A stretch of DNA of 64,000 bases from the NCBI GenBank assembly GCA_941918925.1, contig OW799235.1, forward strand, positions 50,639,491-50,703,490, in the 5' to 3' direction. The notes beneath the pieces are model-generated. The model made no database searches. It was not told where the DNA came from and saw only the letters and a program-made list of their open reading frames with translations. This DNA comes from Phyto melanocephala. Taxonomy: Eukaryota > Arthropoda > Insecta > Diptera > Rhinophoridae. A program made the position numbers and the translations under genes. Of this stretch, positions 12,640-41,840 are shown in pieces; the stretch's first letter is position 1; each line of letters starts with the position of its first letter.

Positions 12640-14145
12640 AAATTCATATAATTTCTCTATTAATAAAGATTTTGGAATAATAAAGGACTATACTAAAACA
12701 TTTAAGTTGTACTCATTAGAAAAAACAACTTTAAAACGCCTACTATAACGCCCACTTTTCACGTTTTCTACCGTTGATGAAATTTAAAAGCTCAAAAAAC
12801 CGCCAAAATTAGAGTATGATGATAAAATTTGCTACGTATATCCCTCTAGGCAATGTCATTACTAAGCCAAAAAACTAAGATGCCACGCCCACTTTTACGC
12901 CCATCTCCCATATAACGTTTTAATTAAAATTCATATAATTTCTCTATTAATAAAGATTTTGGTATAATAAAGGACTATATTGAAACATCTAAGTTGTACT
13001 CATTAGCAAAAACAACTTTGACACGCCTACTATAATGCCCACTTTTCACTTTTTCTACCGTTAATGAAATTTAAAAGCTCATAAAACCGACAAAATTAGA
13101 GGTTTGATGATAAAATTTCCTTCATATATCCCTCTAGGCAATGTCATTACTGTGCCAAAAAACTAAGGTGCCACGCCCACTTTTACGCCCATCTCCCATA
13201 TAACGGTTTATCCTAAATTCATGTAATTTCTCTATTGACGAAGTTTTTGGGAAAATAAAGGACTATATTGAAATATTTAAGTTGTATTTATTAGCAGAAT
13301 CTTTATTGGCACTCCTACTTTAACGCCCACTTTTACGAAAAGACTAAATTTACGAAAACATTTTACTATCATACCGAAGTTATTAAGGTTGGTTAAATTT
13401 TAGGGGCCGATGTTGATTTTAAATAAAACACAAATTACTTTGGAAATTAATATCATTTGTTTTTATAATGATAATATTTGTATGTTTCAATTATGTATTT
13501 AACAAAATATCGGCCAAATGGCCCACCCATCCTTGGCGCACTTCCTCTATCTGATGGTCCAAATTTTCAATGACAATGTTGATGCTCAATTTTTGGGCAT
13601 GATGATGAGTCGAGGTTGACTGCTCTTTTGCCACACTATCGCAAAAAACAGCAATAGTTCCCATTCAACGAACTAAGAAGGCATTCACAGATTTTCTAAA
13701 ATTTTACACAGACCTGTTTTGCAGAAATTTAAATATTTTTTACAATTCTCCCGATTGTGGACGAATTTGAACGATTATGATGACCGAAAGAATCTCTTAG
13801 TGCACAAAATGCATTTTGATTTGAACGCCCATTTTCATAAAAAACCTGGATAACTTTAAAGCGTTGCTCATTTGCGTATATTTCCACGGATCACATTGAG
13901 TAAGTTTGAGATTGAGAAATGTCAAATGAAATGCAGAAAACATCTTTAAAGACTAGGTGTATTTCACCTTCAACATGGGCCCTTAAAATTTAACCACCCT
14001 CTACAAAGAAAGTGATACATATTTTATTATAAAGAGATTATTCCATAGCGATAAACAAAATAATAAATATTGTGCTTTAAATGTACACAAAATTGGTGGT
14101 GGGTATAAAAGATTCGGCACAGCCGAATATAGTGCTCTTTCTTGT
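12640..14145 (+). mobile_element. Helentron/DINE-like element A1, 5' truncated
   Basis: Begins inside a 288-bp minisatellite (units at ~12643, 12930, 13218, each with CGCCTACTATAACGCCCAC and CCACGCCCACTTTTACGCCC) and ends with GGTGGTGGGTATAAAA, the ATTCGGCACAGCCGAAT hairpin and TATAGTGCTCTTTCTTGTT. The interior matches the full-length copy at 31.2-33.6 kb. The 5' end is missing and abuts the T-rich tail after B1. Confidence 0.75.
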
Positions 14146-14213
14146 TTTTTTTTTTTATTTTAAGTTTTAATTTTTTAATACTATTTAGTTACACAAAACA
14201 GTAAATAAATCAT

Positions 14214-14421
14214 CAAGGCATATTTATTCATCAGGTACTCTTGATTCGCCAGCTGATTATTTTTTTCAACACTTATTTTAAATTTCAGCTGTCAAAATGC
14301 ATAAATAAAAAACAATTTTTTCTCTTTTCTAATTTGTTTCAAATGCCAAAATTCATATATAAAAAATATAAACAAAAAATTCTCTCCGAACTGCAATTAC
14401 CTGATGAATAAATATGCCTTG
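14214..14421. mobile_element. hAT-like MITE, 208 bp
   Basis: 24-bp terminal inverted repeats beginning CAAGGCATATTTATTCATC flank a non-coding core. An 8-bp duplication TAAATCAT sits at 14206-14213 and 14422-14429. An 8-bp TSD and CAAGGC/CAGGG-like termini are typical of hAT-derived MITEs. The right half is also present at the start of the second 3.1-kb duplication unit (from 17471). Confidence 0.7.
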
Positions 14422-15189
14422 TAAATCATCAAAAATTTTATTTCGTTTTGTAAATAAAATGTATAAATTTACATTGTTGCCACTACATTTTTTAATAACT
14501 AAATTAATTTGTTAAAAGTAATCGGTATTTGCTCTGGTGCTGCTATATTAAAAAATCTTTGTTACAAGGAGGTTGTCATAATGAAAAATATGAAAAAGCC
14601 ACTTCACTGCTCACGGTAGTCAAAGTTACCTTTTATTAACATTAACCTTATCGGCAATGACCCTTTATGACCTTTTGTGTGCCAAACTATTTTAATATAA
14701 AAGTTGCATATTATCAGAGAGAATTAAGCTATTGGCAGTCTTTAGTAGCAAAATATTCGTAGAAGCAAAATATTATGAAATTCGAAAATGAGATCAAGAA
14801 GTATTGCAAAGTACAATAACTAGGTCAAAAAACTTAACTGAACAGCTCATTATCACAGCAAATTATAAGTGCAATAACGTACAAAATACCTGCTCTCCAT
14901 TTAAAACAAATAATATATAAGCCTAATTATTTTCCTTTTTTTACATTTGTTTTTAAAGTAACAAATAAATAAATACAATATTATGGAAGAGTATTTGATA
15001 AATTTTCTGATTTTTGGAAATTTTTTGAGTCATAAATATGGTATGGTACGTTTGGTTGCAAAGATAAATGAACATAAAACTAAAAAAACCGGCTTCTGTG
15101 AGTAAAAAAACCGGTGTATTCGACATTCGAAAAATTAACATTTGGAAAAAACCTCCTGCTTAAAGAGTAAGAAACCGAGTTTTCCACAG

Positions 15190-16500
15190 GTTGTTAAACC
15201 GAATCGATCACCCTACTACTATTACGACCACTTTTCACGTTATCTAGTGTTAGTGAAATTTAAAAGCTCATAAAACCGACAAAATTGGAGGTATGATGAT
15301 GAAATTCACAACAGATATCCTACTAGTTAATGTGATTGTTATGCCGTGACACGTCCACTTTAACGCCTACCTCCCATATAACGGTTTATCTCAAATTCAT
15401 ATAATTTCTCTATGAATAAAGATTTTGGAATAATAAAGGACTATATTGAAACATTAAAGTTGAATTCATTAGTAGAAACAACTTCAAAACGCTTTCTTTA
15501 ACGCCAACTTTCATTGAAAGGCTACAACAACTTCGACACGCCTACTATTACGACCACTTTTCACGTTATCTAGTGTTCATGAAATTTAAAAGCTCATAAA
15601 ACCGACAAAATTTGAGGTACGATGATGAAATTTGCTACATATTTCTTTCTAGTCAATATTATTGTTACGCCAGAAAATTTAGGTAACACCCCACTTTAAC
15701 GCCTACCTGCCATATAACGGCTTATCTCAAATTCATATAATTCGTCTATGAATAAAGATTTTGGAATAATAAAGGACTGTAGTGAAACATCTAAGTTGCA
15801 TTCATTAGTAGAAACACCTTCAACACACCTACTTTAACGCTCACTTTCATTGAAAGACTAAATTTATGAAAACATTTTACTAGCATATCGAAGTTATATA
15901 AAGAAAGAGATACATATTTTATTATAAAGAGACTATTGCATAGCGATTACTGTTAATAATAAACAAATACATTTTTTGCTATAAATTGGGTTATTTCTCG
16001 GGAATTTGAGTTATTTAATCTTCCCGACTTCCCGGGATTATTTTTCGGGATCCCTGGAAATAAAAAAGGTGGCTACGATCCGAAAGCAGATGTTTATATT
16101 CTTTAAATTGAAATTGAATTCTAATGATTTTATTTTTGATCTAATAGCTGAAGTACCTGTATTTTTGTTTTTTTGTGCTCATATTTCATCTCGTATCTAG
16201 AGATTAATATTTTTTTCAAATAAAAAATATTTTTACTCAATTTATATATTAAGTTCAAGTTTCTTTGTTAATTTTTATAAATTTGAAGTTTTTCTTTTAC
16301 ATTATAAACTAAGTTTTTTTTAATTAAAAACAAATTTACTTTTAATTTGTTTTGCTGCGGGATCCCGGGATATTAAAAAAGAAATCTCGCATTTCCGGGA
16401 AACAAAAATTTTTGGAAAAAAACCCTAGCTACAAAAGAACGGAAAACTGGTGGTGGGTATAAAAGATTCGGCACAGCCGAATATAGTGCTCTTACTTGTT
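15190..16500 (+). mobile_element. Helentron/DINE-like element A2, 5' truncated
   Basis: Degenerate 288-bp-type units (CGCCTACTATTACGACCACTT and similar) lead to the 3' end GGTGGTGGGTATAAAAG, hairpin ATTCGGCACAGCCGAAT and CTTACTTGTT at 16500. Start is approximate. Confidence 0.65.
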
Positions 16501-16615
16501 TTTTTATAATTCTGGAAAAACACACAAAAACCTTTAAATAGGTATCACAACTTAAGTATGTAGTTTATATTTCTTTGCAAACTTATTGTATACACACGTG
16601 TTTAATGCGCAAACT

Positions 16616-16746
16616 GGGGCCGAATTACGGCATTCGATCACGATCGAAATTTTACTCGAACGATCGAGTTCACTGTGCTTTAGGTATAGAGATTCTAATA
16701 AGAATTTTGCAATTTCGATCACGTTCGAATGCCGTAATTCGGCCCC
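16616..16746. mobile_element. 131-bp MITE with GGGGCCGAATTACGG termini, copy 1
   Basis: About 34-bp terminal inverted repeats starting GGGGCCGAATTACGGCATTC, continuing through ATCACGATCG; non-coding core. Superfamily not identified from sequence; a target duplication is not clear (possibly 2-3 bp). Confidence 0.7.
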
Positions 16747-18294
16747 TGGTCTGGTTTTTATTTAACTCTGCATGATTTTAACCAATTAAAAGAACTGTAT
16801 TAAATATTACTACAATAAAGATTTTATTTTAAACAAATTTTCTTCAATTTTACATAAATTAAAAATATATATATTATACGAACTAATATTTAACGAAAAT
16901 TCTTCAAGCTTACACAATTTTACTAATATAATTCTTCTTCTTAGCTTAACTAAATTTTAACCAATCCGTAGTTATTTTAACAAAAAATTTCTTATATTTA
17001 CTTCATTTAAGCGTGTTAATTTAACTAATTTCTTATGTAGTTTTGACTACAATAAATTACTACTACTTTTACAAAATTTTTCTCGGTTTAACAGATTTTT
17101 TTTGATTTAACACAATTTTTTAATAAAATTTTATTCAAGACAACAGATGTTACGAAAATAAACTTCTAACTAAAAAGACATAATTTTAATGGAAATAATG
17201 ATTTGGTTTAAAAAAATTTTGTTTAGATTTGAATAAAAATCCAGTTAATATAATTATTTTTTATAATAACTTTTTCGTTATTATTACCTACGATATTTTT
17301 TTCAGTGTATGAACACAGCACTCAGACTGCCTGCTATAGAAACGAATAGAGCCTTATCAGACTGTACTCTTAAGTGGTAAGGTAAGTGGAAAGCGATAAG
17401 AAATTGTGTTAACCTTACTTAGTTCCGCACAGCGTTGCCATAATCATGATTAAATCATATTTTTAATGAAATATAAACAAAAAATTCTCTCCGAACTGCA
17501 ATTACCTGATGAATAAATATGCCTTGTAAATCATCAAAAATTTTATTTCGTTTTGTAAATAAAATGTATAAATTTACATTGTTGCCACTACATTTTTTAA
17601 TAACTAAATTAATTTGTTAAAAGTAATCGGTATTTGCTCTGGTGCTGCTATATTAAAAAATCTTTGTTACAAGGAGGTTGTCATAATGAAAAATATGAAA
17701 AAGCCACTTCACTGCTCACGGTAGTCAAAGTTACCTTTTATTAACATTAACCTTATCGGCAATGACCCTTTATGACCTTTTGTGTGCCAAACTATTTTAG
17801 TATAAAAGTTACATATTATCAGAGAGAATTAAGCTATTGGCAGTCTTTAGTAGCAAAATATTCGTAGAAGCAAAATATTATGAAATTCGAAAATGAGATC
17901 AAGAAGTATTGCAAAGTACAATAACTAGGTCAAAAAACTTAACTGAACAGCTGATTATAACAGCAAATTATAAGTGCAATAACGTACAAAATACCTGCTC
18001 TCCATTTAAAACAAATAATATAAAAGCCTAATTATTTTCATTTTTTTACATTTGTTTTTAAAGTAACAAATAAATAAATACAATATTATGGAAGAGTATT
18101 TGATAAATTTTCTGATTTTTGGAAATTTTTTGAGTCATAAATATGGTATGGTACGTTTGGTTGCAAAGATAAATGAACATAAAACTAAAAAAACCGGCTT
18201 CTGTGAGTAAAAAAACCGGTGTATTCGACATTCGAAAAATTAACATTTGGAAAAAACCTCCTGCTTATAGAGTAAGAAACCGAGTTTTCCACAG

Positions 18295-19605
18295 GTTGTT
18301 AAACCGAATCGATCACCCTACTACTATTACGACCACTTTTCACGTTATCTAGTGTTAGTGAAATTTAAAAGCTCATAAAACCGACAAAATTGGAGGTATG
18401 ATGATGAAATTCACAACAGATATCCTACTAGTTAATGTGATTGTTATGCCGTGACACGTCCACTTTAACGCCTACCTCCCATATAACGGTTTATCTCAAA
18501 TTCATATAATTTCTCTATGAATAAAGATTTTGGAATAATAAAGGACTATATTGAAACATTAAAGTTGAATTCATTGGTAGAAACAACTTCAAAACGCTTT
18601 CTTTAACGCCAACTTTCATTGAAAGGCTACAACAACTTCGACACGCCTACTATTACGACCACTTTTCACGTTATCTAGTGTTCATGAAATTTAAAAGCTC
18701 ATAAAACCGACAAAATTTGAGGTACGATGATGAAATTTGCTACATATTTCTTTCTAGTCAATATTATTGTTACGCCAGAAAATTTAGGTAACACCCCACT
18801 TTAACGCCTACCTGCCATATAACGGCTTATCTCAAATTCATATAATTCGTCTATGAATAAAGATTTTGGAATAATAAAGGACTGTAGTGAAACATCTAAG
18901 TTGCATTCATTAGTAGAAACACCTTCAACACACCTACTTTAACGCTCACTTTCATTGAAAGACTAAATTTATGAAAACATTTTACTAGCATATCGAAGTT
19001 ATATAAAGAAAGAGATACATATTTTATTATAAAGAGACTATTGCATAGCGATTACTGTTAATAATAAACAACTACATTTTTTGCTATAAATTGGGTTATT
19101 TCTCGGGAATTTGAGTTATTTAATCTTCCCGACTTCCCGGGATTATTTTTCGGGATCCCTGGAAATAAAAAAGGTGGCTACGATCCGAAAGCAGATGTTT
19201 ATATTGTTTAAATTGAAATTGAATTCTAATGATTTTATTTTTGATCTAATAGCTGAAGTACCTGTATTTTTGTTTTTTTGTGCTCATATTTCATCTCGTA
19301 TCTAGAGATTAATATTTTTTTCAAATAAAAAATATTTTTACTCAATTTATATATTAAGTTCAAGTTTCTTTGTTAATTTTTATAAATTTGAAGTTTTTCT
19401 TTTACATTATAAACTAAGTTTTTTTTAATTAAAAACAAATTTACTTTTAATTTGTTTTGCTGCGGGATCCCGGGATATTAAAAAAGAAATCTCGCATTTC
19501 CGGGAAACAAAAATTTTTGGAAAAAAACCCTAGCTACAAAAGAACGGAAAACTGGTGGTGGGTATAAAAGATTCGGCACAGCCGAATATAGTGCTCTTAC
19601 TTGTT
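18295..19605 (+). mobile_element. Helentron/DINE-like element A3 (copy of A2 in U2)
   Basis: Duplicate of A2 at +3105 bp, ending with the same 3' hairpin and CTTACTTGTT. Confidence 0.65.
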
Positions 19606-19720
19606 TTTTTATAATTCTGGAAAAACACACAAAAACCTTTAAATAGGTATCACAACTTAAGTATGTAGTTTATGTTTCTTTGCAAACTTATTGTATACAC
19701 ACGTGTTTAATGCGCAAACT

Positions 19721-19851
19721 GGGGCCGAATTACGGCATTCGATCACGATCGAAATTTCACTCGAACGATCGAGTTCACTGTGCTTTAGGTATAGAGATTC
19801 TAATAAGAATTTTGCAATTTCGATCACGTTCGAATGCCGTAATTCGGCCCC
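19721..19851. mobile_element. 131-bp MITE, copy 2
   Basis: Same element as at 16616, carried along in the 3.1-kb duplication. Confidence 0.7.
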
Positions 19852-20386
19852 TGGTCTGGTTTTTATTTAACTCTGCATGATTTTAACCAATTAAAAGAAT
19901 TGTATTAAATATTACTACAATAAAGATTTTATTTTAAACAAATTTTCTTCAATTTTACATAAATTAAAAATATATATATTATACGAACTAATATTTTACG
20001 AAAATTCTTCAAGCTTACACAATTTTACTAATATAATTCTTCTTCTTAGCTTAACTAAATTTTAACCAATCCGTAGTTATTTTAACAAAAAATTTCTTAT
20101 ATTTACTTCATTTAAGCGTGTTAATTTAACTAATTTCGTATGTAGTTTTGACTACAATAAATTACTACTACTTTTACAAAATTTTTCTCGGTTTAACAGA
20201 TTTTTTTTGATTTAACACAATTTTTTAATAAAATTGTATTCAAGACAACAGATGTTACGAAAATAAACTTCTAACTAAAAAGACATAATTTTAATGGAAA
20301 TAATGATTTGGTTTAAAAAAATTTTGTATAGATTTGAATAAAAATCCAGTTAATATAATTATTTTTTAATTATATTTATTTGGTTG

Positions 20387-20455
20387 TTGGGTTTAAGCTG
20401 GTTTATATGCATTTCACTGGTGCTTATGCCAGATCATCAGTAAACCTTTACCCAA
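20387..20455 (-). ncRNA. Hammerhead ribozyme, P type (P1)
   Basis: Type I layout on the minus strand: outer helix I TTGGGT/ACCCAA, inner helix I GGTTTA/TAAACC, core CTGATGA, helix II CTGG/CCAG, GAAA, two-base-pair helix III within ATGCAT, predicted cleavage after AUA. An internal loop AAA/AGCTTAA splits helix I. Confidence 0.7.
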
Positions 20456-20640
20456 ATTCTTGAAAAAGTTTAAAAAAAAAAGTTGAAAGTTTAAAAATAA
20501 AATAAATTCAAAATTTAAAAAATTGTTGGTTGGGTTTTTGAAAAAGTTTTTTATAGTTTTTTGTTTTATTTTTGAATTCTCATTTTGTTAATGAGAATTT
20601 AAAAATATAACTTATAAAAATTTTAAACTTTTTCAAGAAT

Positions 20641-20709
20641 TTGGGTAAAGGTTTACTGATGATCTGGCATAAGCACCAGTGAAATGCATATAAACCAGCT
20701 TAAACCCAA
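20641..20709 (+). ncRNA. Hammerhead ribozyme, P type (P2)
   Basis: Plus-strand copy of the P ribozyme in the full 359-bp unit, same helices and core as P1 (CTGATGA, CTGG/CCAG, GAAA, ATGCAT). Confidence 0.7.
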
Positions 20710-21047
20710 CAACCAAATAAATATAATTGAAAAATTATGGGAGCATATCCCAAAAAATTTAGTAAATTAACTAATAAAAGATTTTATTTTTCGGTTGCCC
20801 TTATAAACATTTAGTGTTAACCAACGGTTAGCCAAATGTTAAAGGGATTAGAAAAATAAAATAAATTCAAAATTTAAAAAATTGTTGGTTGGGTTTTTGA
20901 AAAAGTTTTTTATAGTTTTTTGTTTTAACTATTATTTAAATTTTTTTAATCAGGCTTGAGTTCATATTATTATTATTCTTTATTTTTACAAAGAATTTTT
21001 TTTAATTGTGATAAATGAAAGAATAAATCTTGAAAAATTATATTTTT

Positions 21048-21118
21048 ACCGACACTAGCCGAGTGGAATGCATTTTCGAAACCAGCTACGATTACATCAT
21101 CAGCACTCTCTGATCGGT
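21048..21118 (-). ncRNA. Hammerhead ribozyme, Q type (Q1)
   Basis: Minus strand. Same fold as Q4, but one base change in helix II (GTAATC opposite GGTTTC) breaks a pair, so this copy may be weakened. Confidence 0.65.
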
Positions 21119-21623
21119 GGTTACATGTTGGTTGTAAATATCATCTATTTAACTCACGGGACTTATGTTAATTGAATCCGGTAACTAATTTTTAGTTTTT
21201 CCTATTTCATATATTTTACCACAATGAGTTAGATTGAAATTTTAACCAAACAGCAACCCTTTTACTTTTTTTTGTTATTATCTTTTCATTTATATCACTA
21301 TTTTTGTCCTGCTCTAGCCACCAGTTAGGTAGCGATAAGAACAGATAATTGTTTTTAACAATCAATGTTTATAATCATTTGTTTTATTTTCTGTGAGGTC
21401 AGTATACAACGAAATGTTGACTGACTAACAGTGAATGAATGATTGCACCGTGCCCTGTGTTTATATAAATTGAATTTTTATTTTGTCGAACTTTTCTGTT
21501 TAAACTATTATTTAAATTTTTTTAATCAGGCTTGAGTTCATATTATTATTATTCTTTATTTTTACAAAGAATTTTTTTTAATTGTGATAAATGAAAGAAT
21601 AAATCTTGAAAATTTATATTTTT

Positions 21624-21694
21624 ACCGACACTAGCCGAGTGGAAAGCATTTTCGAAACCAGCTACGATTTCATCATCAGCACTCTCTGATCGGT
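21624..21694 (-). ncRNA. Hammerhead ribozyme, Q type (Q2)
   Basis: Minus strand, 576 bp from Q1. Core intact, helix II GAAATC/GGTTTC restored; one change in the short helix III region (ATGCTTTC instead of ATGCATTC). Confidence 0.7.
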
Positions 21695-22126
21695 GGTTAC
21701 ATGTTGGTTGTAAATATCATCTATTTAACTCACGGGACTTATGTTAATTGAATTCGGTAACTAATTTTTAGTTTTTCCTATTTCATATATTTTACCACAA
21801 TGAGTTAGATTGAAATTTTAACCAAACAGCAACCCTTTTACTTTTGTTTGTTATTATCTTTTCATTTATATCACTATTTTTGTCCTGCTCTAGCCACCAG
21901 TTAGGTAGCGATAAGAACAGATAATTGTTTTTAACAATCAATGTTTATAATCATTTGTTTTATTTTCTGTGAGGTCAGTATACAACGAAATGTTGACTGA
22001 CTAACAGTGAATGAATGATTGCACCGTGCCCTGTGTTTATATAAATTGAATTTTTATTTTGTCGAACTTTTCTGTTTAAACTATTATTTAAATTTTTTTA
22101 ATCAGGCTTGAGTTCATATTATTATC

Positions 22127-22197
22127 ATCGATCAGAGAGTGCTGATGATGAAATCGTAGCTGGTTTCGAAAATGCATTCCACTCGGCTAGTGTCGGT
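22127..22197 (+). ncRNA. Hammerhead ribozyme, Q type (Q3), at palindrome centre
   Basis: Plus strand, directly at the inversion point. Core, helix II and inner helix I are intact; the first two bases of the outer helix I strand are changed by the junction. Confidence 0.65.
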
Positions 22198-22702
22198 AAA
22201 AATATAATTTTTCAAGATTTATTCTTTCATTTATCACAATTAAAAAAAATTCTTTGTAAAAATAAAGAATAATAATAATATGAACTCAAGCCTGATTAAA
22301 AAAATTTAAATAATAGTTTAAACAGAAAAGTTCGACAAAATAAAAATTCAATTTATATAAACACAGGGCACGGTGCAATCATTCATTCACTGTTAGTCAG
22401 TCAACATTTCGTTGTATACTGACCTCACAGAAAATAAAACAAATGATTATAAACATTGATTGTTAAAAACAATTATCTGTTCTTATCGCTACCTAACTGG
22501 TGGCTAGAGCAGGACAAAAATAGTGATATAAATGAAAAGATAATAACAAATAAAAGTAAAAGGGTTGCTGTTTGGTTAAAATTTCAATCTAACTCATTGT
22601 GGTAAAATATATGAAATAGGAAAAACTAAAAATTAGTTACCGAATTCAATTAACATAAGTCCCGTGAGTTAAATAGATGATATTTACAACCAACATGTAA
22701 CC

Positions 22703-22773
22703 ACCGATCAGAGAGTGCTGATGATGAAATCGTAGCTGGTTTCGAAAATGCATTCCACTCGGCTAGTGTCGGT
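22703..22773 (+). ncRNA. Hammerhead ribozyme, Q type (Q4, reference copy)
   Basis: Outer helix I ACCGAT/GTCGGT, internal loop CAGA/GGCTAGT, inner helix I GAGTG/CACTC, core CTGATGA, one extra T, helix II GAAATC/GGTTTC with loop GTAGCT, GAAA, short helix III in AATGCATT, predicted cleavage after UUC. All invariant core nucleotides of a type I hammerhead are present. The very short helix III suggests it acts as a dimer or in tandem transcripts, as described for Penelope-associated hammerheads. Confidence 0.8.
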
Positions 22774-23278
22774 AAAAATATAATTTTTCAAGATTTATTC
22801 TTTCATTTATCACAATTAAAAAAAATTCTTTGTAAAAATAAAGAATAATAATAATATGAACTCAAGCCTGATTAAAAAAATTTAAATAATAGTTTAAACA
22901 GAAAAGTTCGACAAAATAAAAATTCAATTTATATAAACACAGGGCACGGTGCAATCATTCATTCACTGTTAGTCAGTCAACATTTCGTTGTATACTGACC
23001 TCACAGAAAATAAAACAAATGATTATAAACATTGATTGTTAAAAACAATTATCTGTTCTTATCGCTACCTAACTGGTGGCTAGAGCAGGACAAAAATAGT
23101 GATATAAATGAAAAGATAATAACAAACAAAAGTAAAAGGGTTGCTGTTTGGTTAAAATTTCAATCTAACTCATTGTGGTAAAATATATGAAATAGGAAAA
23201 ACTAAAAATTAGTTACCGAATTCAATTAACATAAGTCCCGTGAGTTAAATAGATGATATTTACAACCAACATGTAACC

Positions 23279-23349
23279 ACCGATCAGAGAGTGCTGATGA
23301 TGAAATCGTAGCTGGTTTCGAAAATGCATTCCACTCGGCTAGTGTCGGT
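23279..23349 (+). ncRNA. Hammerhead ribozyme, Q type (Q5)
   Basis: Plus strand copy 576 bp after Q4 with the same helices and core. Confidence 0.8.
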
Positions 23350-23854
23350 AAAAATATAATTTTTCAAGATTTATTCTTTCATTTATCACAATTAAAAAAA
23401 ATTCTTTGTAAAAATAAAGAATAATAATAATATGAACTCAAGCCTGATTAAAAAAATTTAAATAATAGTTTAAACAGAAAAGTTCGACAAAATAAAAATT
23501 CAATTTATATAAACACAGGGCACGGTGCAATCATTCATTCACTGTTAGTCAGTCAACATTTCGTTGTATACTGACCTCACAGAAAATAAAACAAATGATT
23601 ATAAACATTGATTGTTAAAAACAATTATCTGTTCTTATCGCTACATAACTGGTGGCTAGAGCAGGACAAAAATAGTGATATAAATGAAAAGATAATAACA
23701 AACAAAAGTAAAAGGGTTGCTGTTTGGTTAAAATTTCAATCTAACTCATTGTGGTAAAATATATGAAATAGGAAAAACTAAAAATTAGTTACCGAATTCA
23801 ATTAACATAAGTCCCGTGAGTTAAATAGATGATATTTACAACCAACATGTAACC

Positions 23855-23925
23855 ACCGATCAGAGAGTGCTGATGATGAAATCGTAGCTGGTTTCGAAAA
23901 TGCATTCCACTCGGCTAGTGTCGGT
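23855..23925 (+). ncRNA. Hammerhead ribozyme, Q type (Q6)
   Basis: Last plus-strand copy, 576 bp after Q5, in the partial terminal unit; core and helices intact. Confidence 0.8.
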
Positions 23926-24168
23926 AAAAATATAATTTTTCAAGATTTATTCTTTCATTTATCACAATTAAAAAAAATTCTTTGTAAAAATAAAGAATAA
24001 TAATAATATGAACTCAAGCCTGATTAAAACAATTTAAATAATAGTTTAAACAGAAAAGTTCGACAAAATAAAAATTCAATTCAGTTTTTTGTTTTATTTT
24101 TGAATTCTCATTTTGTTAATGAGAATTTAAAAATATAACTTATAAAAATTTTAAACTTTTTCAAGAAT

Positions 24169-24237
24169 TTGGGTAAAGGTTTACTGATGATCTGGCATAA
24201 GCACCAGTGAAATGCATATAAACCAGCTTAAACCCAA
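24169..24237 (+). ncRNA. Hammerhead ribozyme, P type (P3)
   Basis: Third P copy, in the 215-bp partial unit that closes the insertion; identical in core and helices to P2. Confidence 0.7.
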
Positions 24238-24465
24238 CAACCAAATAAATATAATTGAAAAATTATGGGAGCATATCCCAAAAAATTTAGTAAATTAATA
24301 ATTATTTTTTATAATAATTTTTTCGTTATTATTACCTACGATATTTTTTTCAGTGTATGAACACAGCACTCAGACTGCCTGCTATAGAAACGAATGGAAC
24401 CTTATCAGACTGTACTCTTAAGTGTTAAGGTAAGTGGAAAGCGATAAGAAATTGTGTTAACCTTA

Positions 24466-24987
24466 AGGCCTAACTATATTATGCTTTTGCTGGCTTAAGC
24501 AAATGTGCGGATACACAAAATTAAATGTATGCAACTATATTGTACTTAAGAAACTTTTCGTCAAGTTTCGTCAAGTGTCATTTGCTTAAGCAAACTGCGA
24601 ATCTGATCGTACTTTGCTTACGAAAATAGATTTTCATTTGATATGTACACACTGTTGCATTATTTAGCACTTTTTTATTAATGTTGTCATTTGTTTTTTT
24701 AAATAAGTAAAAAAATTTTTAAATTTAATAGTTTATAGTAAAATATTTTTACATTTTACACCTTAAATAATAATTTTGTGACAATATCAATATATTTAGG
24801 AAATACAGAAATAAAACAGCTTTTGCAAAAGTACAAATATTTGCAACTAATCATAGTAAGTATTTAAGTTTAAAAAGTACAATATATCCACCGGCAAGTC
24901 TCCAAAAATTTGCGTAAGCATTTGACAGACTTTTCGTTGGTTTTTGACAGTAGCTTAAGCCAGCAAAAGCTTAATATAGTTAGGCCT
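24466..24987. mobile_element. Harbinger-type MITE, 522 bp, TTA duplication
   Basis: About 36-bp terminal inverted repeats starting AGGCCTAACTATATTA. The TSD TTA lies at 24463-24465 and 24988-24990. The empty site AACCTTACTTAG is seen in U1 (~17.42 kb) and at ~27.22 kb. Three-base TTA duplication is the mark of PIF/Harbinger. Non-coding interior, so it depended on a transposase supplied in trans. Confidence 0.85.
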
Positions 24988-25251
24988 TTACTTAGTTCCG
25001 CACAGCGTTGCCATAATCATGATTAAATCATATTTTTAATGATTTTTTTTTTTGCTAAAATATGATTTATGATTTTTTCTCCCAAAATGTTGATTTTATT
25101 TTAAGAAATTATTTTTATTTTTAGAATTAATTTTTCTACAATTCTTATTAACAATCAATTTAAAAAAAAATAAAGTTTTGTATCAGCTTGTCGCAGGGTC
25201 TATTAAAAATAGGTTGAAAGACAACTGCGTTTTTTAAGTATATTCTCAACA

Positions 25252-25713
25252 TCTATATCTATATATATAAAAGTGAAACTCTGTGTGTGTGTTAGCTTTA
25301 GACTCCAAAACTATAAAACCGATCGGACTCAAACTTTAACAAGTTGTTGTACACATTCCAGGGAGTGTTAATGGGTGGAAAAAAATGGGCGGGGCCACGC
25401 CCACACAAAATCAGTTTTAGCTACTTGCACTTGACTGATTTTTCTAAAACTTTGCACACATATTGAGCTGTTATGACTTTACAATTTCGTGGTTGGAAAA
25501 GTGGGCAGTACCACGCCCATAAAGAAAATTATCATTTTCAGCTACTTGAACTTTACCGATTTTTCTGAAACTTTCGTGATTAGAAAAGTGGGCAGTACAA
25601 CACCCATTAAAAAAAGTTATAGTTTATAGCTTTTTGCACTTGATATTCAATTTAAATTCAGAATGCATTTTTATTCATTAATGGGCGTAGCAACGCGCGC
25701 CGGGCTTTTCTAG
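25252..25713 (+). mobile_element. Nonautonomous Helitron-like element H1
   Basis: Begins TCTATATCTATATATATAAA and ends CGCGCGCCGGGCTTTTCTAG followed by T, the TC...CTRR termini and GC-rich 3' end of Helitrons. Body carries GGGCGGGGCCACGCCC-type blocks. No coding capacity. Confidence 0.6.
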
Positions 25714-25745
25714 TTTATATATATAAAAGTGAAACTCTGTGTGTG

Positions 25746-26305
25746 TCTACATTACTGTTAATAATAAACAAATACATTTTTTGCTATAAATTGGGTTATT
25801 TCTCGGGAATTTGAGTTATTTAATCTTCCCGACTTCCCGGGATTATTTTTCGGGATCCCTGGAAATAAAAAAGGTGGCTACGATCCGAAAGCAGATGTTT
25901 ATATTGTTTAAATTGAAATTGAATTCTAATGATTTTATTTTTGATCTAATAGCTGAAGTACCTGTATTTTTGTTTTTTTGTGCTCATATTTCATCTCGTA
26001 TCTAGAGATTAATATTTTTTTCAAATAAAAAATATTTTTACTCAATTTATATATTAAGTTCAAGTTTCTTTGTTAATTTTTATAAATTTGAAGTTTTTCT
26101 TTTACATTATAAACTAAGTTTTTTTTAATTAAAAACAAATTTACTTTTAATTTGTTTTGCTGCGGGATCCCGGGATATTAAAAAAGAAATCTCGCATTTC
26201 CGGGAAACAAAAATTTTTGGAAAAAAACCCTAGCTACAAAAGAACGGAAAACTGGTGGTGGGTATAAAAGATTCGGCACAGCCGAATATAGTGCTCTTAC
26301 TTGTT
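25746..26305 (+). mobile_element. Helentron/DINE-like element A4, 3' part
   Basis: Same 3' end as A2/A3 (hairpin ATTCGGCACAGCCGAAT, CTTACTTGTT), truncated at the U3 breakpoint. Confidence 0.65.
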
Positions 26306-26420
26306 TTTTTATAATTCTGGAAAAACACACAAAAACCTTTAAATAGGTATCACAACTTAAGTATGTAGTTTATGTTTCTTTGCAAACTTATTGTATACAC
26401 ACGTGTTTAATGCGCAAACT

Positions 26421-26551
26421 GAGGCCGAATTACGGCATTCGATCACGATCGAAATTTTACTCGAACGATCGAGTTCACTGTGCTTTAGGTATAGAGATTC
26501 TAATAAGAATTTTGCAATTTCGATCACGTTCGAATGCCGTAATTCGGCCCC
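26421..26551. mobile_element. 131-bp MITE, copy 3
   Basis: Same element as at 16616; the left terminus carries one G-to-A change. Confidence 0.7.
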
Positions 26552-27483
26552 TGGTCTGGTTTTTATTTAACTCTGCATGATTTTAACCAATTAAAAGAAC
26601 TGTATTAAATATTACTACAATAAAGATTTTATTTTAAACAAATTTTCTTTAATTTTACATAAATTAAAAATATATATATTATACGAACTAATATTTAACG
26701 AAAATTCTTCAAGCTTACACAATTTTACTAATATAATTCTTCTTCTTAGCTTAACTAAATTTTAACCAATCCGTAGTTATTTTAACAAAAAATTTCTTAT
26801 ATTTACTTCATTTAAGCGTGTTAATTTAACTAATTTCTTATGTAGTTTTGACTACAATAAATTACTACTACTTTTACAAAATTTTTCTCGGTTTAACAGA
26901 TTTTTTTTGATTTAACACAATTTTTTAATAAAATTTTATTCAAGACAACAGATGTTACGAAAATAAACTTCTAACTAAAAAGACATAATTTTAATGGAAA
27001 TAATGATTTGGTTTAAAAAAATTTTGTATAGATTTGAATAAAAATCCAGTTAATATAATTATTTTTTATAATAATTTTTTCGTTATTATTACCTACGATA
27101 TTTTTTTCAGTGTATGAACACAGCACTCAGACTGCCTGCTATAGAAACGAATAGAACCTTATCAGACTGTACTCTTAAGTGGTAAGGTAAGTGGAAAGCG
27201 ATAAGAAATTGTGTTAACCTTACTTAGTTCCGCACAGCGTTGCCATAATCATGATTAAATCATATTTTTAATGATTTTTTTTTTTGCTAAAATATGATTT
27301 ATGATTTTTTCTCCCAAAATGTTGATTTTATTTTAAGAAATTATTTTTATTTTTAGAATTAATTTTTCCACAATTCTTATTAACAATCAATTTTTAAAAA
27401 AATAAAGTTTTGTATCAGCTTGTCGCAGGGTCTATTAAAAATAGGTTGAAAGACAACTGCGTTTTTTAAGTATATTCTCAACA

Positions 27484-34397: not shown

Positions 34398-35003
34398 TAG
34401 ACCTTGCGAGTACCTTATGGATATGCCTTGGTGGGGCAGAATAAAACTTTTCACTTGTCGAGTTAAGAAATTGTTTTTTTTAGAATTTTTATAAAACTTT
34501 CCACTTGTTGAGTAACAAATATTGTTTTTATTTTTATAAAACTTTTATATATAATTATTCAAGCCTAAGGTCATACAAAAGTTTTAATTTTTTTTATAAA
34601 AAGCTACTAAAATTAAACAAGCCTAATATAAAAATATAATACAAATTAAAATTAAAAGTTCAAATGTAATACTTTAAAAATACAACAAACACAGGGCATG
34701 GTGTAAAAATAAAAACATTGTTCAACTAATACCATCTTGTTTAGAACACATGTGACATATAATGAAACTGCATAATTGCAAAAATTGCTTTAGCGACATC
34801 TGTGGATCTGTAGCTAAAGGCAACCATTAATTACCTGTGGTAATGACGTGCAAAAAGAATACAGGAAAAACAGATGTTGGTAGATTTCGTACTAACTCAA
34901 TGTTATATGAAATACATAAATCAATTAGAACAAATAATTCTATGTTTCAAATTTCATTAAATACTGAGTTAAATAGTTGATATTTACACACAACATTTGT
35001 AGC

Positions 35004-35075
35004 TCTGATCAAAAGAGTGCTGATGATGAAACCGTAGCTGGTTTCGAAAATGCATTCCACTCAGCTAGTATCGGA
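35004..35075 (+). ncRNA. Hammerhead ribozyme, R type (R1)
   Basis: Outer helix I TCTGAT/ATCGGA, internal loop CAAAA/AGCTAGT, inner helix I GAGTG/CACTC, core CTGATGA, extra T, helix II GAAACC/GGTTTC, loop GTAGCT, GAAA, helix III in AATGCATT, cleavage predicted after UUC. Compared with Q, both strands of the outer helix have changed while pairing is kept, and helix II gains a C-G for a U-G pair. Confidence 0.8.
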
Positions 35076-35505
35076 TGACTAACTTTTCCTAGATATTCTG
35101 TCATTATCACATAGAACTTATAGCCTAATATAAAAATATAATACAAATTAAAATTAAAAGTTCAAATGTAATACTTTAAAAATACAACAAACACAGGGCA
35201 TGGTGTAAAAATAAAAACATTGTTCAACTAATACCATCTTGTTTAGAACACATGTGACATATAATGAAACTGCATAATTGCAAAAATTGCTTTAGCGACA
35301 TCTGTGGATCTGTAGCTAAAGGCAACCATTAATTACCTGTGGTAATGACGTGCAAAAAGAATACAGGAAAAACAGATGTTGGTAGATTTCGTACTAACTC
35401 AATGTTATATGAAATACATAAATCAATTAGAACAAATAATTCTATGTTTCAAATTTCATTAAATACTGAGTTAAATAGTTGATATTTACACACAACATTT
35501 GTAGC

Positions 35506-35577
35506 TCTGATCAAAAGAGTGCTGATGATGAAACCGTAGCTGGTTTCGAAAATGCATTCCACTCAGCTAGTATCGGA
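35506..35577 (+). ncRNA. Hammerhead ribozyme, R type (R2)
   Basis: Second copy, 502 bp downstream of R1, same sequence. Confidence 0.8.
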
Positions 35578-35662
35578 TGACTAACTTTTCCTAGATATTC
35601 TGTCATTATCACATAGAACTTATAGCCTAATATAAAAATATAATACAAATGTTTTATTTTGT

Positions 35663-35706
35663 TTTTCAATATTTCGCTACTCCTTCGTGTAGCATCTTCA
35701 GGAAAT
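35663..35706 (-). ncRNA. Penelope-type short hammerhead variant h1
   Basis: Minus strand, same sense as the PLE ORF: TTTC, core CTGAAGA, one T, helix II GCTAC/GTAGC, GAAA, AUAUU as a minimal helix III, then GAAA pairing back to TTTC. Matches the small PLE-associated hammerhead variants with reduced helix III. Confidence 0.6.
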
Positions 35707-35915
35707 ATCAATTAACAAAAAATTACAGAATTTTCTTTTTGTGTACTAATAATACAAATTTTTGAAACAAATTTCAGAAAAATAAAAAATTTTCATACAA
35801 AAAATTATACACTAAAAAACAAAAATTAGTTACTTATAATTAATTTTTTGTTAATATTTTTTAATTGATTTTTCAAGTTCGAGGTCTTTATAAATATTTG
35901 TTGATTTATTTATTA

Positions 35916-35957: not shown

Positions 35958-36044
35958 AAATTGTGTGTTTTTACAAAATTTTTATATAATTTTATAACAT
36001 AAAAATATTTTTATTATGTTCTTTCCGACCTTATATTATGTAAA

Positions 36045-36133
36045 TGAATTATTTCAAAACAGGCTCAAGGTCAAGTCGCTACAATTTCCTTATTTTCTAA
36101 TAAAACTCGTTAGTGTTTTTATAAGTAGGTATT
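36045..36133 (+). repeat. Left copy of ~89-bp inverted repeat flanking PLE1
   Basis: Contains CAGGCTCAAGGTCAAGTCGC; reverse complement is at 38340-38430. Inverted copies at the two sides of the ORF are usual in Penelope elements. Confidence 0.85.
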
Positions 36134-36145
36134 TGTAGAAATTTA

Positions 36146-36198
36146 TTTTTTCAATATTTCGAGCGCCTACGGTGCTCTTCTTCAGGAAAAAAAGCTAA
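36146..36198 (-). ncRNA. Penelope-type short hammerhead variant h3
   Basis: CTGAAGA, one A, helix II GAGCACC/GGCGCTC (one A-C mismatch), GAAA, AUAUU, and a longer helix I TTTTTTTC/GAAAAAAT. Nearest of the three to the PLE ORF. Confidence 0.6.
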
Positions 36199-36412
36199 AA
36201 ACACAAACAATAATATACAAAAACAAAATTTACATTAATCAAACTATTCATATACATAAATATTGTATTCACAATTATTTAAAAACAATTGCTGACAAAA
36301 CATATACATATATATTATAAATATATTTCACAAATTATTTAGCAAACTAAATAATTAATATAATTTTTGCCTTACATTTGAGTAAAGCCGTCCGTCCGTA
36401 CACGAATAAACT

Positions 36413-38311
36413 TTAATGCTTACTAATGTTTTTATATTTGAATTTGGCAATTATGTGTCTGTATGTATGTGCACAATTCTCAGTGTCTGTTTTGTAATTT
36501 ATCCTTGTGTTCGCGGGAGTATTAATTATATGTAACATCTCTATTATATATCTCTTCTTATAATTGTCTTCTTGTTGTAATATTGTTGTACCATTTATGT
36601 TAGGAGAGTGTCCGCTAATTGCACAATGGGCTGCTAACGCTGTTTTTTGTTCTGTTGTTCCTTTACGTGTTTTGTAATCTGATTTATGTGCAGCTAATCT
36701 CGTTCGTAATTTAGACTTTGTTGTTCCAACATATGTTTTATTACATACATCAGAACCGTTTCCGTTACACGGTATTTTGTAGACTACGTTCGACTTGTCT
36801 AATATATCTACTTTAGATTTATTGTTTGAAAAAACTTCATTTAACGTTTTATTGGTTTTGAGTGCAATGTTTACCTTCTGTTTGTCGAATATATTTGAGT
36901 GTATAATTCTTTCAGAGAATCCAGGGATATGTGTCAATGACTTGAAAATTTTTTCTGATTTTGCTACCAATGTTTTGTTGATGTTAATTTTAGCACTCTT
37001 AATCAAATCTGTTGCCATCTTATCTGAAAAGCTATTTTTACGTAAAATATTTCTTATTTTCTTGACATTTTCTTCATGATATCTTTCATCACTTATTTGT
37101 AGTACCCTTTTTGCAAAATTTCGTGCTGTATTTAATTTAACGTGTTTCGGATGACTTGAAAAGAAATTAATGATTCTCCCTGAAGCAGTTTCTTTTTGGT
37201 ACCAATCTATTGTTATTTTATTTTGTTTACGTATTATGAGTGCATCCAAATATGGTAGTTTTTCGTTGTATTCTAATTCCATAGTAAATTGTATACGTCT
37301 GTGAAAACTGTTAAGAGATTTAAGTGTTTCCTCCACTTTATTTCTCTTGGTTATGCAAAACAAATCATCAACATATTTACTCATAAGTCTTGGTTTGTGA
37401 TCTAAATTTTCCAGTGTTAAATCTAATAACTCTTCCATAACAATGTCCGCAATTACCGGAGATGCTGGTGATCCCATTGGCATTCCCTTTAATTGTTCAA
37501 AAAATGTTTCGTTATATTTAAAATACCTGTTTTCTTTAATACAAAAATTCAAGATGTCTATAAATAAATCTTTTGGTATCTTAGTATGTGTTGAAATTAT
37601 TTCCCACTTTTTCTTTATGATGTCTATTGCTAAATTAACTGGAATACTAGGGAATAATGATACCACGTCAAAAGAAACTAAAACTTCGTCTTCGGAAATA
37701 TCTGCATTTGATAATTTTCTCTTAAACATTATCGCATCTTTTACGTTATATTTCGAGTCTTTCGTCAGGTTTTTTAAAATGTTGATTATGTAACTGCACA
37801 GACCATATGATGGAGATTTAATCGAGGAACAAAAGGGTCTTAACGGCATGCCATCTTTATGTACTTTAGGAAGTCCATATATTCTTGGTGCAATAGCAAC
37901 ATTGTTCACTAATTTGTATTTTTCAGTTGCATCTATTATATTCAGTTTAAATAGTTTTTCTACAAGAGTGTTGTTACGTGTTTGTAATTTTGTTGTAGGA
38001 TCCGTCTTTAGCCGTTTGTAAGTGCACAAATCGTACACAATATTCTTCATTTTGTTCTCATATTCTTCTTTCTCAACTGCTACAGTGGTGTTACCTTTAT
38101 CTGATTTTAATATTAGAATGTTTTTGTTTTCCTTCAAAAATTTTTTCGTCTTACCCACTGTGCTAATTAAATCTCTTTCTCTTGTTGATAGCGATCTTTT
38201 CTTGAGAAAATTGTCCATCGTCATAACAAGTTTTGTTCTTGCTATCTCTTGTTCCTCTATACTTATGTTCGTCTGAATAATGTCCTCTCCATCGGCAATA
38301 CATTTAAACAA
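36413..38311 (-). CDS. Penelope-like reverse transcriptase/GIY-YIG endonuclease
   Basis: Intact 632-codon frame from ATG 38311; the same frame is open about 10 codons further upstream (PIKKQQFPLFKCIADGE), so the true start was lost at the inverted repeat. Penelope RT blocks: LPKVHKDGMPLRP, VSFDVVSLFPSIP, KGMPMGSPASPVIADIVME and YVDDLF (catalytic Asp pair), then LPYLDALIIR. The C-terminal GIY-YIG endonuclease region has VVYKIPCNGNG, a Cys pair, TYVGTTKSKLRTRLAAHKSD and AAHCAISGH. Full-length Penelope proteins are longer at the N-terminus. It reverse transcribes its RNA at a nick made by the endonuclease. Hammerhead-like motifs lie downstream on the same strand. Confidence 0.93.
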   Translation of the reverse strand: MFKCIADGEDIIQTNISIEEQEIARTKLVMTMDNFLKKRSLSTRERDLISTVGKTKKFLKENKNILILKSDKGNTTVAVEKEEYENKMKNIVYDLCTYKRLKTDPTTKLQTRNNTLVEKLFKLNIIDATEKYKLVNNVAIAPRIYGLPKVHKDGMPLRPFCSSIKSPSYGLCSYIINILKNLTKDSKYNVKDAIMFKRKLSNADISEDEVLVSFDVVSLFPSIPVNLAIDIIKKKWEIISTHTKIPKDLFIDILNFCIKENRYFKYNETFFEQLKGMPMGSPASPVIADIVMEELLDLTLENLDHKPRLMSKYVDDLFCITKRNKVEETLKSLNSFHRRIQFTMELEYNEKLPYLDALIIRKQNKITIDWYQKETASGRIINFFSSHPKHVKLNTARNFAKRVLQISDERYHEENVKKIRNILRKNSFSDKMATDLIKSAKININKTLVAKSEKIFKSLTHIPGFSERIIHSNIFDKQKVNIALKTNKTLNEVFSNNKSKVDILDKSNVVYKIPCNGNGSDVCNKTYVGTTKSKLRTRLAAHKSDYKTRKGTTEQKTALAAHCAISGHSPNINGTTILQQEDNYKKRYIIEMLHIINTPANTRINYKTDTENCAHTYRHIIAKFKYKNISKH

Positions 38312-38339
38312 TGGAAATTGTTGTTTTTTTATTGGTAAC

Positions 38340-38430
38340 GCAAATACCTACTTATAAAAACACTAACGAGTTTTATTAGAAAATAAGGAAATTGTAGCGA
38401 CTTGACCTTGAGCCTGTTTTGAAATAACTC
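38340..38430 (-). repeat. Right copy of ~89-bp inverted repeat flanking PLE1
   Basis: Reverse complement of 36045-36133. It cuts into the upstream reading frame of the PLE protein, which is open back to about 38340. Confidence 0.85.
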
Positions 38431-38804
38431 ATTTATAAAAATATTTTATAAACATTACAAAAAATTTTCAAAAAAAGTAGTATTACAAAAATTAACATAA
38501 AAATTATTATATTAAAAATATAACATAACAAAATATTAACATAAAATATTTATTACTAAATTTAAAGCTTGTAGAAATGTTATTTTTTGTGTATTAAATG
38601 CCTATAGTTCTGAGCAACATTATCTGCCTTGAAGTTAATTCTTTGCGTTCCTGGAATATTTATTATCTGTAACATTTCTAACATATATCTAAGTTTGTAG
38701 TTATGTTCAATGGTTAGAAATGATACATTTTAAAAGTTTGGATAGTGATTCGATTTAGAACAATGTGTTGCCAAAGCCGTTTTCAGTGAACTAATATTGT
38801 ATCT
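38431..38804. other. AT-rich gap between PLE copies
   Basis: Left half is AT-rich without features. The right part (38580-38800) is probably the diverged 3' end of the PLE2 GIY-YIG region on the minus strand, in broken frames. Confidence 0.4.
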
Positions 38805-39536
38805 TTACTTTTGGTACGATCTATGTCCAGCTATTCTTGTCTTAAGCTTATTCTTTGTTGTACCTATGTAAACCTTATTACAACTCTCATTATCATTACC
38901 ATTACAAGGTATTTTATATACCACATTTGACATGTCCCACTTATCTATTCTATCTTTTGTCTTACTAAATAGTCTACCTAATGTATTATATGTCCTATAA
39001 GCTATTCCATATCTCTCAGAATCAAAGATTCTAGATTTCCTCAAACGTTCTGAAATTCGCGGTACATAAGTCATAGACTTGTAAATATTCCGTTCTGTCA
39101 TGTCTGAATAACTATCCTTATTACTATTATCATTATTATTACTATTATTATTATTATGATTTTTTCTAAACTGATTTAGCAAACTTTGAACTACTTGAAT
39201 AGGAAAATTGTTGTCAATTAATATCTCCTTAATTGTTTCCCTATTTTCCATATGGAAATCTTTATCACTAATTGTTAATACTCTTTTTATAAAATGTTTA
39301 GCCGTATTCATAATAATCTGTCTGTCATGTTTAGAATAATAATTTATGATTCTCCCCGATGCAGTTGGTTTCTGATACCAATCCACTACTATACTGTTAC
39401 CTCTCCTTATCATTAATGTATCCAAATAAGGGAGTTTCAAACGAACTTCCACTTCCATTGAAAATTTTATATTAGGATTGAATTGATTAAGTGTATCCAA
39501 CATTTCATTAATTGGAGATCCCATTGGAAATCGCAA
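38805..39536 (-). pseudogene. PLE2: Penelope-like RT C-terminal part and GIY-YIG domain
   Basis: 243-codon frame: a PMGSP stub fused directly to NEMLDTLNQF, so the YVDD block is deleted. Then LPYLDTLMIRR, DWYQKPTASGRIINYY, an Asn-rich repeat, and VVYKIPCNGNDNESCNKVYIGTT of the endonuclease. Distinct family from PLE1 but close to PLE3, which lies head-to-head with it. Confidence 0.85.
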
Positions 39537-41239: not shown

Positions 41240-41840
41240 GATTTCCAAGAAAGTAAAAACGGAACTAAACACAGCTGTCTATTGCCAAACTCAATAAGAG
41301 CACTTATAGTTGGACCGTCTAATTGTGGAAACACAAACACAGTTTAATTGAAAGCCCTAATGGATTAAAATTTAAAAATATATATTTATACTCAAAATCC
41401 CTACATCAACCAAAATATCAATCAATCAATCAATATCAATTAATTTCATCTGTAAAGGGTATAGGACTTTATACTTTTTCAGAAAATGAATATGTCGTAC
41501 CACCTCAAGAAGCTAAGTCAAATTCAATAATGATATTTGATGATGTTTCTTGCGAAAAACAAAATAATATTAGATCATACTTTTGTATGGGGAGACATAA
41601 TAATATTGATTCCTTCTACTTATGTCAAACGTATACACACATTCCAAAACATTTAATACGTGATAATGCAAATTTCATAATAATGTTTAAACAAGATGAT
41701 TTAAATTTAAAGCATATTTATAATGATCACGTTGGAAATGATATGAGTTTGACATGTTTTCTAAAATATGCAAAGAATGTTGGAAAGAAAAACATGGATT
41801 TCTAGTAATAAGTAAAGATGATGAAGTCATAATGGACGTT
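41240..41840 (+). pseudogene. Maverick packaging ATPase (FtsK/HerA, A32-like)
   Basis: Walker A appears as LIVGPSNCGNTN, with Asn in place of the invariant Lys, just before a frameshift near 41335. The frame 41323-41805 then gives GLKFKNIYLYSKSLHQPKY, Walker B NSIMIFDDV, YLCQTYTHIPKHLIRDNANF and a C-terminal region that shifts frame again near 41760 (CKECWKEKHGFLVI). In intact Mavericks this enzyme pumps DNA into the capsid. Lysine loss plus two frameshifts make it inactive. Confidence 0.85.

Follow-up and report, generated by a model that had tools for sequence, protein, structure and literature searches.

In a 64,000-nt stretch of the genome of the fly Phyto melanocephala (GenBank assembly GCA_941918925.1, contig OW799235.1, forward-strand positions 50,639,491 to 50,703,490; hereafter "the window"), six hammerhead ribozyme cores recur at exact 576-bp spacing, two on the minus strand and four on the plus. 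A sequence-only reading had reported this arrangement, and the positions of residue C3 in the six cores (minus strand, 21679 and 21103; plus strand, 22142, 22718, 23294, and 23870) confirm it. How does a small hammerhead-bearing unit come to be repeated head to head within a single insertion? The palindrome, which that reading had recognized and left without explanation, is the most informative part of the locus, and it proved to be a property of the whole family to which this array (element A) belongs; this family trait, a second element (B) that encloses A, and a third array (A') beside a Penelope-like element (PLE) all go beyond what had been reported. The answer we consider probable is that A, A', and B are retrozymes inserted by PLE-type two-strand priming on one circular RNA. 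Element A has the following parts, with phases counted from residue C3 and TSD standing for target-site duplication:

20928..24081, unstranded: element A, 576-bp hammerhead units arrayed head to head (probable retrozyme)
20928..22125, minus strand: minus arm of A, 2.08 units; outer 3' end at the short site, phase +175
22129..24081, plus strand: plus arm of A, 3.39 units; outer 3' end at the long ("tail") site, phase +211
20914..20927 (left) and 24083..24096 (right), plus strand: TSD of A, 14 bp, AGTTTTTTGTTTTA

The limits first proposed for the array (20927-24082) agree with the measured element, 20928-24081, bounded by its TSD; one additional C, at 24082, stands between the end of A and the right TSD copy. 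The intact target, without the insertion, is found within B at 20540-20600.

Whole and partial units of A gave at least 215 matches in the genome searched (740 Mb in nine contigs). The sample consisted of 39 arrays, namely that of the window and 38 other array places among the 150 matches listed. Thirty are palindromic, and both outer 3' ends could be read in 28 of these; one array with a broken arm (L050) and one of complex structure (L056) were dropped before the ends were counted, while L049, also complex, was retained. In 27 of the 28, a short end (median phase +173, standard deviation 2.5) is paired with a long one (median +210, standard deviation 3.8), the long end being on the right side in 17 arrays and on the left in 10; the exception, L039, has two short ends. 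With end classes (160-184 and 200-226) that were defined post hoc, when the ends were already known, this pairing has a probability of about 1e-7 under independent choice. After ends were moved by up to 14 nt to give the best-fitting TSD, TSDs of 11-17 bp were obtained in 26 of the 28 arrays (mode 13), the others being 7 bp (L038) and 9 bp (L062); those of low complexity include L036, L059, L065, and L066. Of 780 random placements, 10 gave a TSD at least 11 bp long.

Two pairs of A loci deserve separate mention. L043 and L073 have near-identical TSDs once oriented alike (CATAGTATTTATC and CATAGTATTTTTC), perhaps representing one target inside a repeat, and L068 and L069, ~4 kb apart, share the same layout and ends, for which a segmental duplication is more likely than two insertions.

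The insertions in the window are nested: A sits within B, which has a 359-bp unit, and B sits within a host repeat, two other copies of which provide natural empty sites.

20369..20479, minus strand: minus arm of B, 0.31 unit of 359 bp; outer 3' end at the short site, +71
20493..20927, plus strand: plus arm of B, first part, resuming beyond A at 24097
24097..24297, plus strand: plus arm of B, last part; outer 3' end at the long site, +113
20355..20368 (left) and 24298..24311 (right), plus strand: TSD of B, 14 bp, ATAATTATTTTTTA
17220..17330, plus strand: natural empty site of B in another host-repeat copy
27020..27140, plus strand: second natural empty site of B, in another host-repeat copy

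With at least 480 genome matches, B is the source of five further end pairs (the window array and four fetched), all five combining a short end (+67 to +78) with a long one (+110 to +117); the TSDs of the four fetched arrays are 13-16 bp. The host repeat belongs to a region (13600-27200) in which a ~3.1-kb unit recurs (offset 3105 bp, 16695 vs. 19800) with 336-bp repeats inside it, and B is present in one copy. Elsewhere, one B array (G000, C2:114770932-114780044) has at least 25 full units, 11 minus and 14 plus, and a single identical bit score in 24 of those listed.

The third family, A', has at least 173 genome matches. Its representative in the window is:

34620..35650, plus strand: array A', 1031 bp long, comprising two 502-bp units and a further 27 bp

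Among the A' matches listed, 39 end fragments were found (17 short, 20 long, two unclassed), and the arrays with both ends have one short and one long in seven of seven cases. For A, B, and A' pooled, short is thus paired with long in 39 of 40 arrays, which would have a probability of about 4e-11 if the ends were independent. The near-constant presence of one end of each kind hints that, on a single RNA, use of one start precludes use of the other.

A and A' are homologous along the entire unit: the remainder outside the hammerhead scores 206 in alignment, against a shuffled mean of 114 (standard deviation 10.5). Identity is 66 of 76 columns in the hammerhead, 32 of 45 just upstream, and 277 of 491 in the remainder. 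In the distal part of helix I, comparison by hand of six pairs shows one two-sided and two one-sided pair-preserving changes; a covariation count on the gap-free A/A' alignment found no two-sided changes, because a one-base loop indel displaces the distal helix there. Homology of the 3' end positions of A and A' was also considered and was rejected, as the outcome varies with gap costs.

The two arms of each array bear on the template from which they were copied. The window A array has nine variable phases, two of them at the center junction, and every variant is private to a single unit. Over the 39 A arrays, 104 segregating sites are singletons and eight are shared (six in L049 and one apiece in L056 and L057). 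Unit pairs are 99.5% identical within a locus, whether from the same or opposite arms, and 99.2% identical between loci. In realigned units (before realignment, 116 of 449 cells were discordant owing to strand-dependent gap placement), and at phases that vary from locus to locus, opposite arms of a locus carry the same state in 90 of 91 cells for substitutions (4 phases) and in 302 of 309 with deletions included (13 phases); between loci, the proportion of discordant cells is 31 and 28%, respectively. Modal unit length is equal between arms in nine of 11 loci, with a chance expectation of 0.18 each. Of 56 A arms, 41 are longer than one unit and 23 longer than two, the longest reaching 8.0 units, and 13 of 28 arrays have more than one unit in each arm. 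The cleavage site is traversed by 53 of the 56; one arm stops within 5 nt of it. Arm agreement, multi-unit arms, and crossing of the cleavage site together lead us to conclude that both arms were copied from one RNA sequence, that it was uncut at this site, and that most arms represent more than a single pass along it.

A circle would supply such a template, a homogeneous multimer being less likely. Priming could nevertheless be of the PLE type, on both strands, with a tandem array transcribed into a long linear multimer that serves as template in place of the circle. Purified PLE accepted unprocessed RNA in vitro, the tandem loci of this PLE yield multimer transcripts (PMC11167929), and arms that cross the cleavage site are equally compatible with this template. 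However, unit-specific variants of the source array would then reach both arms in order, and of the 112 variant sites observed within arrays, 104 are confined to a single unit, and the arms match one another; identical bit scores in 24 of the 25 full units listed for one B array also speak against it. We consider a multimer unlikely, though by no means negligible.

Alternatively, one or two units might have been inserted and then expanded in the manner of a satellite, by unequal crossing-over and by gene conversion between arms. Tandem identical units are, as is generally known, typical of satellites, and some of the arrays are long. Against this, both arms exceed one unit in the 13 arrays mentioned, both outer borders retain their end sites and TSDs, and the variants form a star rather than nested blocks, which together make such expansion improbable.

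For the enzyme that would prime on both strands, the best candidate is the PLE machinery, because the borders of A, A', and B are like those of a PLE resident in the window next to A'.

36413..38311, minus strand: open reading frame (ORF) of a 5'-truncated PLE, 632 aa, reverse transcriptase with YVDD (domain match)
36012..38344, minus strand: body of PLE copy C1, with tailed 3' end at ~36012
38341..38434, plus strand: inverted 3'-end fragment of PLE C1, 94 bp, stopping 30 nt before the tailed end
35999..36011 (left) and 38435-38447 (right), plus strand: candidate TSD of PLE C1, 13 bp, ATAAAAATATTTT
36130..36205, minus strand: hammerhead-like core C1 of the PLE, with an extra A after A9; passes the descriptor given below, centroid fold with helix II only
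35640..35715 (core 35658-35704), minus strand: hammerhead-like core C3, with an extra U after A9, abutting A'; a 4-bp helix I has to be allowed

The truncation point of PLE C1 is a head-to-head junction with the inverted 94-bp fragment, and the candidate TSD flanks both; an AT-only 13-mer recurs by chance near a random AT-rich place in 169 of 20,000 trials. The 43 matches of the PLE C1 family either stop at query positions 188-200 or extend to 212-219. Head-to-head pairs with one short and one long end, like the window copy, occur at seven loci (C2:77.59, C2:44.38, C3:63.03, C3:49.28, C5:58.01, C5:69.25, and C3:31.88 Mb) in a table read by eye, where "long" denotes a match that runs to the end of the query (219) and the copy itself may extend further, a weakness in the comparison. 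A PLE-type tail on one end is thus common to A, B, A', and the resident PLE, and both borders of A lie at set end sites. For comparison, purified anole PLE protein cleaves and extends both strands, with starts at two neighboring internal sites; these correspond to the genomic tail and account for the 30-40 bp tail termed unique to PLEs (PMC11167929); PLE insertions have likewise been described as head-to-head pseudo-LTRs (pLTRs; LTR, long terminal repeat) with TSDs and a 31-bp tail that is optional on one pLTR (PMC3846280).

Besides YVDD, the PLE ORF contains the motifs VYKIPC, YVGTT, and RLAAH, which we take to be of GIY-YIG type. Such an ORF, with reverse transcriptase and GIY-YIG, is present in this neighboring copy and in none of A, A', and B. 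Relative to its best relative (837 aa, 70% identity) the PLE protein lacks ~195 N-terminal residues. The named ones among at least 120 relatives are flies (e.g., Lucilia sericata and Haematobia irritans at 58%); no relative was found in viral contigs or among solved structures.

Mobilization by a long interspersed nuclear element (LINE) through ordinary twin priming, without a PLE, would also leave TSDs of similar size and inverted 5' parts, as is generally known of LINEs. Both borders of the arrays are however at positions internal to the unit, and two fixed starts giving a tail are a PLE signature (PMC11167929) that the resident PLE family shares; mobilization by a LINE is very improbable. 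Just as improbable is self-priming on an antisense template as the origin of the inverted half, which has been put forward for head-to-head copies, specifically the Penelope palindromes of rotifers (PMC3846280). By itself it gives no reason for outer ends at two set sense-strand sites beside TSD halves, and the phases of the center junction are spread rather than fixed: BLAST-trimmed inner ends are distributed over the A unit (Kolmogorov-Smirnov p 0.70), the five at phase 0 coinciding with the query start. An assembly artefact of the missed-adapter kind, in which long inverted repeats arise from reads, as can generally happen, is extremely improbable, given unequal arms with private variants, nonpalindromic flanks, TSDs, and a palindromic form in 30 of 39 A arrays as well as in B and A' arrays.

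Trimmed inner ends fall at phase 235 in five of the 56 A arms (L042, L048, L051, L061, and L073), a possible strong stop within a distribution that otherwise looks uniform.

The hammerheads of the three families were examined with a descriptor requiring helix I of at least 5 bp, helix II of at least 4 bp, GAA, a closing 15.1-16.1 pair, and H at the cut, and tolerating one unpaired base after A9.

21045..21120, minus strand: hammerhead A, mutated helix II; fails the descriptor
21621..21696, minus strand: hammerhead A, mutated helix III; passes the descriptor
22125..22200, plus strand: hammerhead A at the palindrome center (descriptor)
22701..22776, plus strand: hammerhead A (descriptor, folding)
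23277..23352, plus strand: hammerhead A (descriptor)
23853..23928, plus strand: hammerhead A (descriptor)
20391..20459, minus strand: hammerhead B, with a U.U mismatch at the base of helix II
20637..20705, plus strand: hammerhead B (descriptor, folding)
24165..24233, plus strand: hammerhead B (descriptor)
35003..35078, plus strand: hammerhead A' (descriptor, folding)
35505..35580, plus strand: hammerhead A' (descriptor)

The window has 11 descriptor matches (five of the six A cores, two in A', three in B, and one PLE core); 100 dinucleotide shuffles gave a mean of 0.02 and a maximum of 1. All six A cores had been described as complete, which the descriptor bears out for five; the minus-strand core at 21103 fails in helix II, and the A core, in which an additional U separates A9 from helix II, is not strictly canonical. 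Its helix III is short and palindromic (AATGCATT). Over the 39 A arrays, 132 exact cores were found against 151 units that cover the core. The units of the three families have GC contents of 28, 30, and 24%, all below 50%, and no complete ORF of 90 aa or more was found in 20928-24081, in 34620-35650, or in the B stretch. Viral contigs scanned for the exact A and B core patterns gave no matches, and a looser core pattern gave five stretches. The earlier proposal of a retrozyme gains support from type I geometry, noncoding low-GC tandem units, TSDs, and a co-resident Penelope element, and it also fits arrays of near-identical unit copies running across the cleavage site.

Several observations count against the interpretation as retrozymes inserted by PLE-type priming on a circle. 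Nine of the 39 A arrays are one-directional, and the window A' array has no inverted arm and no TSD that could be seen by eye. The Rfam check proposed in the sequence-only reading was negative: no hammerhead matched in the whole window at the gathering score or in 20200-24400 at E up to 5, and RF00163 had no match over the genome, control genomes likewise giving none with that search. The extra U after A9 is likely one reason for the missing Rfam match. In one viroid hammerhead an extra A at this place reportedly causes a moderate loss of rate, and its change to U a 3-4 fold gain in trans-cleaving rate (PMC3705267). Predicted folding energy is ordinary for A (z -0.8), with z-scores near -1 for A, A', and B, and in the minimum-energy folds of all three, part of the catalytic core is paired with the helix III strand; centroid folds of A and A' have helices I and II surrounding a mostly open core. 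Predicted folding alone is therefore weak support for a hammerhead. Modal unit length is unequal between arms in two of the 11 loci (L041 and L054), and homogeneity within arrays could come in part from later gene conversion. At 576 and 502 bp, A and A' exceed the 150-450 bp of reported animal retrozymes (PMC7229834), a range that describes those reported so far and is no mechanistic criterion; B, at 359 bp, lies inside it. Purified PLE used uncleaved RNA in vitro, the hammerhead being dispensable (PMC11167929). Finally, the 3'-end sequence of A resembles that of the PLE only weakly (p 0.01, simple shuffle test), a suggestive match that is unused here as support, and comparison of A' and B with the PLE 3' end found nothing.

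Taken as non-autonomous non-LTR retrozymes, A, A', and B could be inserted as follows. Tandem transcripts would self-cleave at the hammerhead, and the unit RNA would close to a circle. A Penelope-like ribonucleoprotein would cut AT-rich DNA with a stagger of mostly 13-15 bp, and the 3' end on either side of the break would serve as primer for reverse transcription from an internal position in the RNA, with one strand starting at the short site and the other ~35-45 nt further 3', at the long (tail) site of the same RNA sequence. Each complementary DNA (cDNA) may go round the RNA several times before halting at a random place. The left flank would gain antisense cDNA, that is, minus copies with the 3' end outward, and the right flank its mirror image; joining of the two cDNAs in mid-element would then give minus units on the left, plus units on the right, outward RNA 3' ends, and a TSD. 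Self-cleavage, circularity, use of the PLE protein, and simultaneous priming are the steps that we infer. We also lean, somewhat less firmly, toward a more specific version, in which each array is the footprint of one PLE ribonucleoprotein holding a single RNA circle, with two mutually exclusive starts and the cDNAs rolling round it.

Animal retrozymes with their hammerheads and circles, and tailed PLE palindromes, are already known. Type I hammerheads, noncoding low-GC tandem repeats, TSDs longer than 4 bp, and co-resident PLEs are shared with the metazoan non-LTR retrozymes described in PMC7229834; among the motifs given there, those of axolotl resemble A in their weak palindromic helix III and B in the U.U mismatch at the base of helix II, and newt and axolotl motifs with a short palindromic helix III perform best as dimers. 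Differences are the extra U after A9, the head-to-head palindromes, and the two defined end sites; the words "inverted" and "head-to-head" are absent from the main text of that paper. Among the open-licence papers searched, taken without their supplements, no statement was found of retrozyme arrays as head-to-head palindromes with PLE-type ends. PLEs of the Penelope/Poseidon clade, as described in PMC11167929 and PMC3846280, have in common with the present families head-to-head copies, outward 3' ends, AT-rich targets, a tail of ~30-40 nt on one end, and a hammerhead near the start site; unlike them, A, A', and B encode no protein, and small whole units are copied, several rounds per arm. The LTR retrozymes of plants also have a hammerhead, are non-autonomous, and form circular RNA (PMC4918200), as the present families would; they differ in a type III hammerhead, ~350-bp direct repeats seen as LTRs, a 4-bp TSD, and a primer-binding site and polypurine tract (PMC7229834, PMC7761336). 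The plus hammerhead of Chrysanthemum chlorotic mottle viroid likewise has an extra residue between A9 and helix II (PMC3705267), in an unrelated infectious RNA.

Some further features lie around the resident PLE. The hammerhead-like cores C2 (35909-35955) and C3 are both of PLE type and 251 bp apart; C2 fails the descriptor, and C3 folds as a single long hairpin instead. Rearranged pieces of a second Penelope-like element, in both orientations, occupy 38805-40568. At 41323-41805 and 50170-50625 there are Pfam matches to Poxvirus A32-like and double-jelly-roll-like fragments, which may be Maverick/Polinton-like relics.

PLEs have been named as a strong candidate for moving animal retrozymes (PMC7229834), and retrozymes may rely on them (PMC8969392). 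In this fly, the insertion borders of three retrozyme families bear the PLE tail signature, as does a PLE family of the same genome, and the pairing rule turns this association into a testable mechanism: two strands, two start sites, and one RNA. If the reading of a single circle with two starts is true, it would reveal which enzyme mobilizes animal retrozymes, and with it a two-ended, rolling form of target-primed reverse transcription.

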